In this document: positions 43,616 through 48,406 of the stretch, piece after piece
How the letters are laid out: every line of letters begins with the position of its first letter
Numbering within the stretch: position 1 is the first letter of the stretch
Source of the DNA: Plantactinospora alkalitolerans
Lineage (GTDB): Bacteria > Actinomycetota > Actinomycetes > Mycobacteriales > Micromonosporaceae
Assembly: GCF_015690345.1 (NCBI RefSeq)
Contig: NZ_JADPUN010000185.1
Location: forward strand, 1-64,000
Direction of reading: 5' to 3'
Length of the DNA: 64,000 nt
Made by a program: the position numbers and the translations under genes
Notes under the pieces: generated by a model
Seen by the model: the letters and a program-made list of their open reading frames with translations, nothing else
Database searches by the model: none
Told to the model about the DNA's origin: nothing

Positions 43616-44374
43616 TCAGTAGAGGCCGAGGCGGAAGACCTCGAAGCTGGCCGCGTGCTTGACACCCAGGCGGCTGCCGGTCTGCCGGGAGAAACCGTCC
43701 AGGAACTCCTCGGGGTCGAAGTCCCCGGCGCCAAGGCCCTGTAGATAGGCGGCGTGCGCCTCGAGCGACTGCACGCCCAGGTCGAACGTCTCGGTGGTGT
43801 CGACTCCGTGCTTCGACAGCGGCGATCCGGCGGCCCACACCTCCCGGACGCCGTTCCACTTCTCCAGCCCTTCCTCGATCTGCTCACGGAACACCCAGCG
43901 GTTCGCCGCGTCGCGTGCGGCGTCGAGCACGGCTCGACCGGTGACGATGTGGTCGGACATGTTCAACGCGTTGCCTTCCGCGTCCCAGCTGTCGCGGAAG
44001 TTGTTCGTGATCACGATGTCCGGCCGGTGCGTCCGGATCACCCGACTGAGGTCGCGGCGCAACGCGACGCCGTACTCCAGGACGCCGTCGGGTAGTCCCA
44101 GGAAGTCGACCTGGGACACGCCCACGATCGCCGCGGAGGTGCGCTGTTCCTCCTCGCGGGTCGGTCCGGCCACGGCCGGCTCCATTCCGTCGATCCCGGC
44201 CTCGCCGCTGGTGAGCAGCACGTAGGTGATCTCTTTGCCCTGGCGTGTCCAGCGCGCGATGGCCGCGGCGGCGCCGAACTCCAGGTCGTCTGGATGGGCG
44301 ACGATGGCGAGCCCACGCTGCCAACTCTCGTCGACGGGCTGGAGCGGGTTGGGAACGGGTGCGTCAGCAGACAT
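43616..44374 (-). CDS. PIG-L family deacetylase
   Basis: A 252-aa zinc deacetylase. The metal motif is AIVAHPDDLEFGAAAAIARW (HPDD, near residue 25), and SDHIVTGRAVLDAARDAANR provides the third ligand His. The family removes N-acetyl groups from sugars; in actinomycetes it includes MshB (mycothiol), Mca-type and antibiotic-sugar deacetylases. The full sequence does not allow a choice. ATG 44374 has the site AGGAAG; ATG 44383 is adjacent to that site and less likely. Confidence 0.92.
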   Translation of the reverse strand: MSADAPVPNPLQPVDESWQRGLAIVAHPDDLEFGAAAAIARWTRQGKEITYVLLTSGEAGIDGMEPAVAGPTREEEQRTSAAIVGVSQVDFLGLPDGVLEYGVALRRDLSRVIRTHRPDIVITNNFRDSWDAEGNALNMSDHIVTGRAVLDAARDAANRWVFREQIEEGLEKWNGVREVWAAGSPLSKHGVDTTETFDLGVQSLEAHAAYLQGLGAGDFDPEEFLDGFSRQTGSRLGVKHAASFEVFRLGLY

Positions 44375-44567
44375 GTGACCCATCTTCCTCGACCACGCTC
44401 CGGGGCCGCATCCCTTCCCGCACCCGGCGCCGGTGTCGCTCCGGGCGGTCGACCGCGGATCCCGATGGCGGCGCGGGCCCGCGGGGCGGTGCACACCGCC
44501 CGGCAGCCGTGCCGGGGGTGGAAACCCGGTGGTCCCGCCGACCAGGCCCGTGCGAAGATCGACATCT

Positions 44568-44695
44568 GGGTCGCTAGCTCAACTGGCAGAGCATTCGGCT
44601 GAGTAGCGCGTCCGCTTTCCGCCTGTGCGGTCATGGGAGCGCTTCCTTCTCCTGGTTGGACCGAATGGTTCGGGGTTCGAGTCCCCGGCGACCCA
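44568..44695 (+). tRNA. tRNA-Lys-like gene with a 60-nt segment in the anticodon loop (possible pseudogene)
   Basis: All canonical arms are present except a normal anticodon loop. The acceptor stem GGGTCGC (44568-44574) pairs with GCGACCC (44688-44694), with A at 44695. The D arm is GCTC/GAGC (44577-44580 and 44589-44592), the anticodon stem is TTCGG (44594-44598) with CCGAA (44661-44665), and the T arm CGGGG/CCCCG carries loop TTCGAGT. Where a 7-nt loop should be, CT is followed by 60 nt (44601-44660). The body resembles actinobacterial tRNA-Lys(CTT), whose loop would end CTTAA; no such sequence remains. The insert is too short for a group I intron. No CCA is encoded. It may be a split pseudogene or a novel tRNA-like RNA. 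Confidence 0.6.
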
Positions 44696-44796
44696 CTGTG
44701 CCGCGGCTGCGAGCCGGCAACCGCCGGCGTCGCCTCCCGGGCCGGCGCCCGTCTGTCGTTTCGCCGAGAGTCACCACCAGCGGAAGGGAGAACCCC

Positions 44797-46980
44797 GTGC
44801 TCGAAAAGCTGATCATCTCCAAGACACTGCGCGTCCCGGCAGGCACCGGAGCGGCTGGCGACGGCACGCCGGTGGCCCGGCAACTGGATGCGGTGCTGCT
44901 CGACGTCGGGTTCTCGGCCTCGCGAGCGCTGCTGGAACACGTCGGTGCCCTGGCTCCCGGCCCGGCGCTGGATCTCGCCGCCACGGTCGTGTCCGCGGTG
45001 CGCGAGCTGGTCGGCGACCATGTCCAGCACAACGCCTACTTTCTCGGTTTTCCGGACGACGTTCCGGACACCATCGAGTTCTGGACGGAACGGCTGCGGG
45101 CGGCCGTGCTCAGCCGCGGCGGCACGGCGACCGACGCGAAGCTTCGGGACGCGGTCGTCTCGGGCGGGGTGAACCTGCTCGACCTGCCGGCCTACGGCGT
45201 CTACCCGCACACCTACGCCGAGCTGTTGGCCGCGCACGACTCGCTGATCGCCACGGCCGGTGACCGGGTGACCCTGCTGCATCTCGGCGACACCGTCGAC
45301 GCGGAGGCGGCGCGGCTCTACCTGGCCCTGGCCGGTAGCTCGACGCCACTCGGCGAGGCGGACCTCGCGATCCTCGGCGAGCTCGCGGTCGCCTGCCTGG
45401 ACGGCGCGCAACCAGCCGAGATTCCGGTGCGGGAGAACCGTGCCGTCCTGAACGGGATGCGGCTCGTCCTCGGCAGGCCGCTGGTCGCCGTGGACACCAC
45501 GACCGACGTGCTACGCCTCGCCTGCTATGCCTCCGGCGGGGACGCCTCGCTCGGAACACCTGCGCGATTTCGTGCCTTTCGGCGCCGGGAGCGCCGGATC
45601 CTGCTTGCCGCCCTGGACGGGGTCGTCGGCGCGAGCCCGGACAAGCTTGGTGACGTCGCACGTTACGCGGAGCGGTGGAAGCGGCTCGGGGAGCGGCTGC
45701 ACCCGCACGAGTACGACGAGTGGCCGCACGCACAGGAGGTGTTCGCCGTCGCGCGGGGGGACCGGCGAGGACACGGCCTCGCCGGTCGTGCCGAGGCGGC
45801 GATCCGGGCCGGAGCCATCGGCCCGGCCGCGTCGGTGCTGTCGGCCGCGCCGGGACTGCTCCTGCGATCGGCGGACCGGCTGCTGCGGCTGGCGCCGGCG
45901 TCGGAGCGAGGCGTCGTGGTCGACGCAGTCACTGGTGCGCTCGGCTCGGCGTCGGGCCGGGTGCTCTGTTCGCTGCGCGAGCATGTCGGCAACCGGCTGA
46001 CGCCCGCGTCCGTCCGGATGTACGCGAGCCGCTCTCGGCGGGCGTGGGTCGGGCCGGACGAGCGGCCGCCGCTGCCGGCCGGTCTGGTGGCCGAGTTGTC
46101 GTCGCTGCTCGACGCGGAGATCAGCGCCCGGCTGCCGGAACCGGGGCGACCGCTGGTGGTGGACCCGCAGGTGCTCGACGTCGCACTGCCGCTGTCCGGC
46201 CGGGCGACCGAAGGCGGATTCGGGGTGCTGCCGAGGGGCTCGCGGGCATCGGTCTCCGGTGAACTGCTGCGCTTCTTCACCTACTGGCGCCAGACCGAGC
46301 GGCGTACCGACCACGACCTGTCGGTGCTGCTGCTCGACGACGAGTTCCACGCTGTGGGCCAGGTGTCCTGGACGAACTACCGCCACGCCGGCGTGGTGCA
46401 CTCCGGCGACGTCACCGACGCGACGAACGGTGCGACCGAGTTCATCGACGTGCCCCTGACGGTTCCCGGGCAATACGTGGTTCCGCAGGTCCACGTCTAC
46501 GCGGGCGAGTCGTTCGACGACGTCGCCGAGTCGATGTTCGGGTACCAGACCCGGGGACGGGACCAGCGCGGCGCCCCGTTCGACGCACGGACGGTGCGGG
46601 CGCGCTCGCAGCTGCGCGGCCAGGGCCGAGTCGCGCTGCCGATGGTGTTCGCCAGGGGCGAGCGTGGCTGGCAGGCCGTGTGGCTCCACCTGTACCTGCG
46701 GGGTATGCCGTCGTTCAACCGGGTGGAGGAGAACACGTTCAGCACGGCGGACCGGGTACGGGCGCTGATGGAGCGGCGCTACCTCACCGTGTCCTACCTT
46801 GTCGACCGGTGGCGGGCCCGGGCCGAGGTGCTGACGTGGGACGGCCGGTTGCCGGACGAGCCGATCACGTTCATCGGCATCGAGGCGCCCGAGGGCCTGC
46901 CGGACGGCTCGGAGGCGTACACCCTGGACCGGCTGGGCGAGCTGATACCGGACAGCCTGCCGGGCGAGCCGCGCAGGTGA
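44797..46980 (+). CDS. TerD-like stress protein, large (727 aa)
   Basis: A 727-aa soluble protein. The C-terminal third (residues 470-690) has TerD-type features: DHDLSVLLLDDEFHAVGQVS, HAGVVHSGDVTDATNGATEF and a late VWLHLYLRGMPSFN. The N-terminal two thirds are helical (ALDLAATVVSAVRELVGDHV, NAYFLGFPDDVPDTIEF) and resemble actinobacterial and myxobacterial proteins annotated as SCO0854/MXAN_6230-like. Some relatives are said to have a RING domain; no cysteine cluster is seen here. Role in tellurite or envelope stress is inferred from the fold. GTG 44797 has a GGAAGGGAG site. It lies 101 bp after the tRNA-like gene. Confidence 0.8.
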   Translation: MLEKLIISKTLRVPAGTGAAGDGTPVARQLDAVLLDVGFSASRALLEHVGALAPGPALDLAATVVSAVRELVGDHVQHNAYFLGFPDDVPDTIEFWTERLRAAVLSRGGTATDAKLRDAVVSGGVNLLDLPAYGVYPHTYAELLAAHDSLIATAGDRVTLLHLGDTVDAEAARLYLALAGSSTPLGEADLAILGELAVACLDGAQPAEIPVRENRAVLNGMRLVLGRPLVAVDTTTDVLRLACYASGGDASLGTPARFRAFRRRERRILLAALDGVVGASPDKLGDVARYAERWKRLGERLHPHEYDEWPHAQEVFAVARGDRRGHGLAGRAEAAIRAGAIGPAASVLSAAPGLLLRSADRLLRLAPASERGVVVDAVTGALGSASGRVLCSLREHVGNRLTPASVRMYASRSRRAWVGPDERPPLPAGLVAELSSLLDAEISARLPEPGRPLVVDPQVLDVALPLSGRATEGGFGVLPRGSRASVSGELLRFFTYWRQTERRTDHDLSVLLLDDEFHAVGQVSWTNYRHAGVVHSGDVTDATNGATEFIDVPLTVPGQYVVPQVHVYAGESFDDVAESMFGYQTRGRDQRGAPFDARTVRARSQLRGQGRVALPMVFARGERGWQAVWLHLYLRGMPSFNRVEENTFSTADRVRALMERRYLTVSYLVDRWRARAEVLTWDGRLPDEPITFIGIEAPEGLPDGSEAYTLDRLGELIPDSLPGEPRR

Positions 46981-47047: not shown

Positions 47048-48406
47048 TCAGGCGAGGCTGCAGGCCGCACCGTTGAGGGTGAACGAGGCGGGCCTGGCGG
47101 TGTTGCCGGTGTGGTTGGCTTGGAAGCCGATGCTCACCGACGCGTTCGGCGCGATCGCGCCGTTGTAGGAGGCGTTCCGGGCCGTTACCTGTCCGGAGGA
47201 CGGCGAGTAGCTGGCGTTCCAGCCGGAGGTGATGGTCTGGCCGCTCGGCAGGGTGAAGACCAGCGACCAGCCGTTGACCGCGGTCGTGCCGGTGTTGGTG
47301 ATGGTGAGGCTCTCGGTCAGGCCCGTGTTCCACGCGTTCACGGTGCTGGTGACCCGGCACGCGCCGGGGCCCGTCGTCGGTCCTGTGGTCGGGCCGGTCG
47401 TCGGTCCCGTGGTCGGTCCGGTCGTCGGTCCGGTGGTCGGTCCGGTGGTCGGGCCCGTCGTCGGTCCTGTCGTCGGCGTGGTGCCCTCGAACTGGGTGAA
47501 GAAGGTCCAGGTCTCCTGGGGGAGCCACTGCCCGCCGGAGTCCGACGGGCTGCCGGTGTGCCCTCCGTCGAACGCGTACCAGGCAACCGGATGCCCGGCC
47601 GAGCAGCCCGAGTAGTGGAACTCGGTGTGCCGTCCGCTGCCCTGCGTCGGCTCGGGCGGGCTTGCCGCGGTGCAGCCGTTGTTCCGGACGAACCTGTCGC
47701 GCATCGAGCGTCCGCCGGAGATGCTGAGCACGTTGTCACTGATGCCGTGCGCATGGAGATACGCGATCGGCTGGGTGCCGCCGTTGCATCCGCTGAGCAC
47801 GCCACCGGCGTAGATCGCGACGGCGCGGAAGACGTTGGCACGGGCACACGCGAGCGCGTAGCTCATGCCGCCGCCGTAGCTGAATCCCAGGGAGAATATC
47901 TGTGCCGTGTCGACACAGAGAGCGTTCCCGATCGTCTGGATCATGTTGTCGGTGAAGGTCACGTCCTCGCCGCCGGAATTGGCCCAGCCGGCGTTGAGGC
48001 CCTCGGGCGCGACGAAGATCGTGCTGTTGTTCGACAGCGGCAGGAGACCGTAGTAGTTCCCGCTCGCGACCGCGTTGGCGTTGCCGTTCAACCAGTGGAA
48101 CCCGAAGACCAGCCGGTAGGGACGGCTGTTGTCGTAGTTGTTGGGCAGCCTCAGGATGAAGGTGCGGTTCTTTCCGCCGCTCTGCATCGAATGTGTGCCG
48201 TTGGCCAGCGCCGGTGCCTTACCGCAGCCGGCGGTGGCCGCGAGGACGCCTACCCCGGAGCCCGGCGCGCTTCCGCCGGCTCCTCCGGATATCGCCGCAC
48301 CCGACGGTATCGCGGTCGCCACCAACATCGCGACGCCAGCGGCGGCTGCGATGCCCGACAGCGTCAGAATCGTCGGGCGACGTCTGCGACCTGTTCTCCC
48401 AATCAA
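47048..48406 (-). CDS. Secreted CE1-type esterase with CBM2 cellulose-binding module
   Basis: A 452-aa exported esterase. Residues 1-38 are a signal peptide (ILTLSGIAAAAGVAMLVATA). The catalytic domain (about residues 55-300) is of the polyhydroxybutyrate depolymerase/feruloyl esterase (CE1) type: nucleophile elbow LGFSYGGGMS, Asp in AHGISDNVL and His in FDGGHTGSPS. A linker of nine TTGP repeats follows, then a CBM2 module (about 350-452: TSTVNAWNTGLTESLTITNT) with two Cys. It should release acetyl or feruloyl groups from plant cell-wall polysaccharide. TTG 48406 has a strong AGGAGG site. Confidence 0.92.
   Translation of the reverse strand: MIGRTGRRRRPTILTLSGIAAAAGVAMLVATAIPSGAAISGGAGGSAPGSGVGVLAATAGCGKAPALANGTHSMQSGGKNRTFILRLPNNYDNSRPYRLVFGFHWLNGNANAVASGNYYGLLPLSNNSTIFVAPEGLNAGWANSGGEDVTFTDNMIQTIGNALCVDTAQIFSLGFSYGGGMSYALACARANVFRAVAIYAGGVLSGCNGGTQPIAYLHAHGISDNVLSISGGRSMRDRFVRNNGCTAASPPEPTQGSGRHTEFHYSGCSAGHPVAWYAFDGGHTGSPSDSGGQWLPQETWTFFTQFEGTTPTTGPTTGPTTGPTTGPTTGPTTGPTTGPTTGPTTGPGACRVTSTVNAWNTGLTESLTITNTGTTAVNGWSLVFTLPSGQTITSGWNASYSPSSGQVTARNASYNGAIAPNASVSIGFQANHTGNTARPASFTLNGAACSLA
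47366..47473 (-). repeat. Nine 12-bp tandem repeats coding a TTGP linker
   Basis: Nine near-identical 12-bp units inside the CE1-CBM2 gene encode (TTGP)x9, a flexible, probably glycosylated linker. Such a repeat is prone to copy-number change between strains. Confidence 0.85.

Follow-up and report, generated by a model that had tools for sequence, protein, structure and literature searches.

We analyzed a 64,000-nt stretch of DNA from Plantactinospora alkalitolerans (contig NZ_JADPUN010000185.1, positions 1 to 64,000 of the forward strand; hereafter the window), and in it a 128-nt element that an earlier sequence-only reading had described as a tRNA-Lys-like gene with a replaced anticodon loop. 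The element, at 44568–44695, is best explained as a structured noncoding-RNA gene that derives from a tRNA and whose rebuilt anticodon arm makes decoding impossible. Together with a protein gene downstream on the same strand it constitutes a two-part unit, as seen from conserved RNA structure, a promoter-like block, linkage, co-occurrence and some co-decay. We propose, with moderate confidence, that the RNA derives from a tRNA and partners a Ro60-like protein in the manner of a Y RNA, with the layout of a bacterial Y RNA circularly permuted. Feature coordinates are collected in Table 1; other genomes and loci are referred to by our own G and L numbers where they need to be told apart.

Architecture, spread and conserved structure of the RNA

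The Rfam tRNA family (RF00005) matches exactly this element on the forward strand (52.8 bits; gathering score 29; E = 1.7e-8), which is the sole Rfam match above the gathering score in the window, and ARAGORN reports neither a tRNA nor a transfer-messenger RNA (tmRNA) in the 64 kb. The four tRNA stems, described as intact in the sequence-only reading, are so at every pair, as confirmed by coordinates, and the loop between the halves of the anticodon stem is, as claimed, CT followed by 60 nt. The two pairings pointed out within the insert, AGCGC/GCGCT (44605–44609/44639–44643) and CCGC/GCGG (44619–44622/44627–44630), are likewise present. The loop letters CTTAA are gone from the window's element and, by eye, are kept in none of the aligned copies described below; in place of a 7-nt anticodon loop with its anticodon there is a 62-nt loop with no conserved anticodon. 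Within the insert the extra hairpin comes first and is followed by CUUCCUUCU (77 of 79 copies); CTTCCTTCT is also found in 77 of the 79.

A comparison with 60 related genomes, suggested earlier as a check, returned four whole copies at 84–91% identity, three of them in other genera. With a covariance model made from the window RNA and the four other copies (R1), 79 copies scoring 77–155 bits were found in 78 of 354 genomes of the window's family; ordinary tRNA-sized matches (73 nt) to the model score 75 bits or less. The copies span 12 of the family's 44 genera, as counted by reading the match list. In a second family of the same order, a second covariance model found seven copies in 6 of 297 genomes. 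A draw across the order gave the RNA in 5 of 200 genomes, four of the five in the window's family, and an even draw across the phylum gave it in 2 of 396, both in that family. The RNA is thus widespread within a single family and seldom met outside it. The covariance and protein searches applied thresholds that may have passed over RNAs or genes of more divergent sequence; the RNA search used strict filters and the protein search scored the three best candidates per genome, so that absences are less sure than presences. Two RNA copies occur in G1010 (L283, L288) and in G220 (L200, L255), the latter also holding a second, truncated copy (residues 1–372) of the partner gene treated below. A search of phages and plasmids with the RNA gave no match, and a pattern hit in a viral contig (L304), with neither a covariance-model hit nor the partner gene, was discarded as a chance match. 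The host genome comprises 9.2 Mb in 441 contigs.

When the 79 copies (78 distinct) are aligned, the cloverleaf and insert hairpin are paired in 94.5% of cells and 17 of 39 pairs have changed on both sides; no measure was equalled in any of 500 shuffles, and sliding the pairing partners makes the structural signal collapse. The acceptor stem, made by the RNA ends, is paired in 99.4% of cells. In the anticodon stem, U-A is replaced by C-G in 23 copies and A-U by G-C in 13, and because of these compensatory changes we consider the stem to be maintained even without an anticodon. Taken alone, the insert hairpin is paired in 98.1% of cells; both sides have changed in 7 of its 13 pairs, and none of 500 shuffles scored as high. 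Folded singly, the window insert is unremarkable (z = −0.8), the whole window RNA moderate (z = −2.0), and the inserts in general modestly better than shuffles (mean z = −1.5; 78 of 79 copies); the signal above chance comes from conservation in relatives and compensatory changes. The alignment was fitted to a model containing this structure and is biased towards it, and unconstrained RNAalifold left the anticodon stem unpaired, the compensatory changes being counted on the structure of Table 1. Rfam scans for any other family at E values up to 10 returned the tRNA family plus chance-level matches (mascRNA and two CRISPR models). A LacI-type operator, proposed earlier within the insert, did not hold up: the 12-mer is a perfect palindrome in 2 of the 78 readable copies (of 79), 32 of the 78 are symmetric at 10 or more of the 12 positions, and its left half varies like an RNA stem.

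These data bear on the more trivial explanations. A recombination scar, an ordinary pseudogene and an assembly error would each be in line with the missing ARAGORN call, but all three are ruled out, since this insert recurs in 78 of the 354 family genomes with compensatory base changes, and we attach practically no credence to them; of the three options that had been offered (scar, pseudogene or a new tRNA-like RNA), the last is the supported one. Among 85 distinct tRNA sequences from loci of the same genome, tRNA-Lys(CTT) is closest to the arms (alignment score 55 of a possible 70); the arms are alike, and this RNA differs in its absent anticodon, 62-nt loop and conserved hairpin. The proposed look at tRNA-Lys(CTT) showed that genes for both tRNA-Lys(CTT) and tRNA-Lys(TTT) exist elsewhere in the genome, and decoding is therefore independent of this element. 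A tRNA-Lys carrying a small anticodon-loop intron and spliced to a working tRNA would explain the perfect cloverleaf arms as well as the site of the insert, the anticodon loop being a frequent position of tRNA introns. This is nevertheless very improbable: when the 79 aligned copies are inspected by eye, the insert is not bordered by conserved letters of an anticodon, no Rfam intron family matches the locus, the tRNA-Lys genes of both kinds are present elsewhere, and the coupling to one protein gene would be left unexplained. A group I intron had already been thought unlikely, and the Rfam scans gave no intron match of group I or group II for this 60-nt insert. With tmRNA the element has in common a tRNA-like body with an added domain, as tmRNA is described in a passage of PMC8394870, but here what has been added to the anticodon arm is a short hairpin, and ARAGORN makes no tmRNA call.

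Upstream of the RNA, 76 of the 77 loci with full upstream sequence could be anchored to the consensus cgaAAcccgaT.Gcc..G.Cgg.ccgGccgGTGcGAtGAT. Most loci have in common the pattern GAAAC ... GGTGCGATGAT, ending 5–9 nt ahead of the first G of the RNA (8 nt in 45 loci, 7 in 17, 9 in 9, 6 in 4 and 5 in 1). The anchor, A-N-[CGT]-[AC]-T, is loose, and the weight rests on the strongly conserved columns flanking it. Judged from its letters, the block looks like a promoter that would initiate transcription near the mature 5' end of the RNA. In the second family, tRNA-Ser and tRNA-Asn genes stand directly behind the RNA of L286 (1304–1628, minus strand), an arrangement that fits what a tRNA-processed RNA would allow, and a tRNA-Gly gene stands upstream of the RNA of L288 (1262–1631).

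Linkage and co-inheritance with a partner gene

A homologue of the gene that follows the RNA in the window, or a piece of one, was detected by tblastn in the fetched region of 67 of the 79 RNA loci, and at full length in 61; the other 12 are without it by tblastn, and in one of them, L230, the first codons are readable. Of the open reading frames (ORFs) that surround the unit, none has relatives in more than seven other loci; the fetched regions mostly cover 1.5 kb on its upstream side and about 1.2 kb on its downstream side. The 354 family genomes divide into 66 with a near-full orthologue, all 66 of which have the RNA, 12 with the RNA alone and 276 with neither. The 66 consist of 65 with single near-full matches at 75% identity or more and G096, whose 688-aa orthologue is split into two matches; the near-full match of G191 holds two internal stops. 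Among the 276 RNA-less genomes, G132, G024 and G130 hold fragments of close orthologues (69–85% identity) and G013, G030 and G032 a full relative at 49–53% identity. The second-family loci vary: L282, L285 and L286 carry 341–490 partner residues running to the end of the locus, L283 and L287 pieces only, and L284 and L288 no partner gene in a 3.1-kb locus. The gene is under purifying selection, with nonsynonymous divergence of 0.07–0.09 and synonymous divergence of 0.26–0.32 in five pairs.

RNA and gene also tend to decay together. RNAs scoring below 100 bits occur in none of the 66 genomes with an orthologue and in 5 of the 12 without (P = 4e-5), and four genomes (G142, G081, G156 and G296) combine an absent or disrupted gene with visible damage to the arms or CU stretch of the RNA.

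The two partners can be separated. In G274, G224, G336 and G341, whose RNAs score 134–148 bits, the gene is intact and on the same strand but displaced downstream by 3.1, 7.0, 18.4 and 24 kb, respectively; since both are intact at such distances, the RNA need not be the leader of the gene and could act in trans. A cis-acting leader, that is, a tRNA-like fold in the 5' untranslated region that controls the downstream gene through, for example, tRNA-type processing or a tRNA-sensing factor, would agree with the shared strand, with the gap of 1–101 nt wherever a gene start was recognised beside the RNA, and with the ATG starts 1 nt past the RNA in L202 and L208. We consider it unlikely on five grounds: (i) the intact partners lying 3–24 kb apart in four genomes; (ii) the location of RNA and gene on different contigs in G219; (iii) the two tRNA genes between RNA and gene in L286; (iv) the retention of the RNA without the gene in G213 and G237; and (v) an insert hairpin conserved across genera, which seems more than a leader requires.

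The DNA interposed between the RNA 3' end and the gene in the four genomes (L239, L195, L244 and L238 for G224, G274, G336 and G341) includes a Mutator-family transposase gene in L238, and upstream of the displaced gene the sequence of G224, G336 and G341 picks up again at CCCACTG, which is close to the last bases of the RNA. Ten ORFs behind RNAs with no adjacent gene comprised this one Mutator transposase and no integrase, and hence we claim no attachment site.

The conserved CUUCCUUCUCC raises the question of an antisense RNA, in which this motif would pair with purine-rich ribosome-binding sites, that of the partner gene included. Over 53 loci the duplex of the motif with the partner gene's own 20-nt leader averages −10.1 kcal/mol, compared with −6.6 for shuffled leaders. 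A CU-rich strand is, however, expected to pair with ribosome-binding sites generally, the control consisted of shuffled leaders rather than the leaders of other genes, and L202 and L208 leave no space for a leader at all, which makes this account quite improbable.

Predicted fold of the partner protein

At the sequence level the partner protein matches only NF041916 (MXAN_6230/SCO0854 family RING domain-containing protein), with 321.6 bits over three stretches, below the equivalog cut-off of 600, the best stretch being residues 325–656. The lone locus above that cut-off among 61 genomes (L151 in G022) is without such an RNA.

For predicted structures, similarity is given as a Z score with root mean square deviation (rmsd) and aligned residues. 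The AlphaFold model of the whole protein has a predicted local distance difference test score (pLDDT) of 75. Its residues 486–657 are predicted to adopt a TerD fold, as judged by matches to 2qng (Z 13.8, rmsd 2.7, 148 aligned), 2qz7_B (13.4, 2.8, 147), 3ibz (12.3, 3.5, 148) and 2kxt (Z 11.0); 7jtk_A (Z 12.4) and 9a6r_B (Z 11.8) are other entries that match this region. The helical part of the same model matches the Ro60 protein of phage phiLo (9l5y_B; Z 8.0, rmsd 5.5, 234 aligned) and Deinococcus Rsr (2nvo; Z 7.4, rmsd 8.4, 312 aligned), with the next helical-part entries at Z of about 5, two of them human Ro60. Modelled alone (pLDDT 87), the helical domain has as its top match 9kop, entitled 'Crystal structure of the Trove domain' (Z 9.1, rmsd 6.8, 262 of 319 residues), and also matches the Ro60 entries 9nep_A (Z 7.5, rmsd 10.2, 259 aligned) and 1yvp_B (Z 7.1, rmsd 9.8, 260 aligned). 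Unrelated CAND1 chains reach Z 8.0 over 97 residues only, and others among the best 50 entries align at most 168; it is because non-Ro60 entries align far fewer residues that Ro60 is singled out, by coverage and not by Z alone. Based on these models, a Ro60-like fold of the helical region is likely but unproven.

Comparison with bacterial Y RNAs and proposed role

Bacterial Y RNAs mimic tRNAs, and in passages of PMC8394870 YrlA is described as having (i) a large stem, formed from the 5' and 3' ends, that binds Rsr and (ii) a tRNA-like domain, resembling D, T and acceptor arms, that binds PNPase. The RNA described here resembles the YrlA/Rsr pair in having tRNA-like D, T and acceptor arms, as seen from the RF00005 match and the paired stems, plus an extra stem, and in lying beside a gene for a predicted Ro60-like protein. 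It differs from YrlA, as described in the same source, in that its ends form the acceptor stem whereas the extra stem is a closed internal hairpin. The partner has no PF05731 match, and a TerD-like domain takes the place of the von Willebrand A (vWA) domain of Ro60. With neither an end-formed stem nor a Y RNA model match, we do not class it as a Y RNA. The same two modules, combined with a linked, co-inherited and probably Ro60-like protein, make a tRNA-derived, Y-RNA-like partner the simplest reading.

For its expression, processing, binding and function, we infer the following scheme. Transcription would begin from a promoter belonging to the RNA, at its 5' end or no more than a few nt away, and tRNA-processing enzymes would trim the product; the Ro60-like/TerD-like protein would bind the extra hairpin and the CU-rich strand; and the tRNA-shaped body may serve a tRNA-handling enzyme or nuclease as handle, gate or tether.

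Several results weigh against a Y-RNA-like partnership. On the genetic side, the Fisher P value for co-occurrence, 9e-60, is inflated by the non-independence of relatives; the weak RNA of G207 runs off the end of its contig, and leaving this genome out reduces the co-decay to 4 of 11 (P = 2e-4); and 7 of the 12 RNA-alone genomes keep RNAs of 100 bits or more, the best being those of G213, with no gene, and G237, with a 60-residue remnant. Protein relatives at 48–57% identity (L146–L148 and L150) and the SCO0854-type L151 come with no such RNA, the second covariance model giving a chance-level match in L146 only among these outside protein loci, so that the RNA appears to have become attached to a single branch of the partner-protein family. 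On the protein side, no Pfam family matches the partner at E values up to 10, hence neither TerD nor PF05731 is matched in sequence; 26 aligned homologues give no TROVE match (E up to 1); when 14 actinobacterial TROVE proteins are compared by hhalign, the E values are 0.18 and 0.40, with probabilities below 1%; and PDB sequences include no relevant match. The Ro60 similarities (Z 7–9, rmsd 5.5–10.2) fall in a range that, as the tool warns, may reflect a common helix arrangement, and Foldseek alone lists no Ro60 among its best 50 matches. Ro60 proteins carry a C-terminal vWA domain; none is seen in the partner, where residues 486–657 match TerD, and its absence from the matches is no proof. For the RNA, the Rfam scan at E up to 10 contains no Y RNA covariance match, the set of Y RNA models in Rfam not having been checked. 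An hhalign lineup of the partner motif K..D...W..L..LHP with the TROVE motif KYD...F.DVL.L.HP shifts register between alignments and was given no weight.

Alternatively, the RNA could be a decoy or inhibitor. As a mimic of tRNA it would occupy a nuclease that attacks tRNAs or an enzyme that modifies them, possibly during defence or stress, and the TerD/Ro60-like protein would be its carrier. A full tRNA body with no anticodon and the patchy distribution (78 of 354 genomes) are compatible with this, and in a part of PMC7790460 YrlA is proposed as a possible competitive inhibitor of an anticodon nuclease. The partner protein, however, matches no PADLOC defence model, and the fetched stretches show no further gene that is widely shared as a neighbour of the unit; we hold a decoy to be rather unlikely.

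Going beyond a Y-RNA-like partner, we tentatively put forward, at somewhat less than even chances, a new ribonucleoprotein class, whose RNA evolved directly from a tRNA gene, kept the tRNA ends, and with them possibly 3' CCA addition, base modification or charging, and docks a Ro60-TerD protein through its rebuilt anticodon arm. It would be a permuted Y-RNA analogue that arose independently of YrlA, and it would serve as a tether or gate when tRNA or RNA undergoes quality control under stress. To our knowledge, the origin of bacterial Y RNAs is open; if the proposal is true, a tRNA-derived RNA with tRNA ends tied to a Ro60-like protein would suggest a route from tRNA to Y RNA, laboratory actinobacteria would become a test ground for a Ro60-type machine, and the TerD-like domain would link Ro60-type RNA handling to Ter stress systems. 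More generally, 'broken' genes skipped by tRNA finders can be conserved noncoding RNAs. Among the papers listed in literature searches, none describes, by title or abstract, such an RNA or a TROVE-TerD protein, which does not establish absence from print.

The same genome also contains, in L305 (G000:C111:46328-55047), 31 ARAGORN tRNA genes followed within about 1 kb by an ORF matching the TROVE family PF05731 (50.2 bits), so that next to this tRNA array there is a further Ro60 relative, one that can be recognised from its sequence.

Table 1. Positions in the window of the RNA, its parts and the associated features
Feature	Position	Strand	Basis or detail
tRNA-like noncoding RNA, 128 nt	44568..44695	+	RF00005 52.8 bits; family model R1 154.8 bits; 79 copies in 78/354 family genomes
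Acceptor stem	44568-44574/44688-44694	+	all pairs formed
D stem	44577-44580/44589-44592	+	all pairs formed
Anticodon stem	44594-44598/44661-44665	+	all pairs formed
T stem	44671-44675/44683-44687	+	all pairs formed
62-nt anticodon-loop replacement (CT + 60 nt)	44599..44660	+	coordinates and alignment of 79 copies
Insert hairpin	44605..44643	+	outer stem 44605-44614/44634-44643 (one position uncounted); inner stem 44619-44622/44627-44630
CU-rich stretch CTTCCTTCTCC	44642..44652	+	first two letters paired, remainder unpaired in the structure given here
Promoter-like block	44521..44559	+	GAAAC (44521-44525) ... GTGC-GAAGAT (44550-44559), ending 8 nt before the RNA
Ribosome-binding-site-like GGAAGGGAG of partner gene	44782..44790	+	sequence reading
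Partner gene, 727 aa, GTG start	44797..46980	+	predicted Ro60-like solenoid and TerD-like domain
Putative Ro60/TROVE-like helical region, about residues 166-447	45292..46137	+	structural matches of predicted models; sequence profiles do not confirm
Predicted TerD-like beta domain, about residues 486-657	46252..46767	+	structural matches of predicted model

Directly upstream of the RNA and divergent from it lies a gene for a PIG-L-type deacetylase (43616–44374, minus strand), whose product resembles bacillithiol and mycothiol deacetylases, below their cut-offs, and whose closest named relatives include Plantactinospora, Actinoplanes and Virgisporangium, in line with Micromonosporaceae as the window's family. 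It was rejected as a member of the unit: in flanks of up to 3 kb around each of its 48 named relatives, blast gave only 27-nt, tRNA-sized matches, in five loci. On the other side of the unit, the product of 47048–48406 (minus strand) carries a cellulose-binding domain (CBM2) at its C terminus, and its linker is made of repeated TTGP units.
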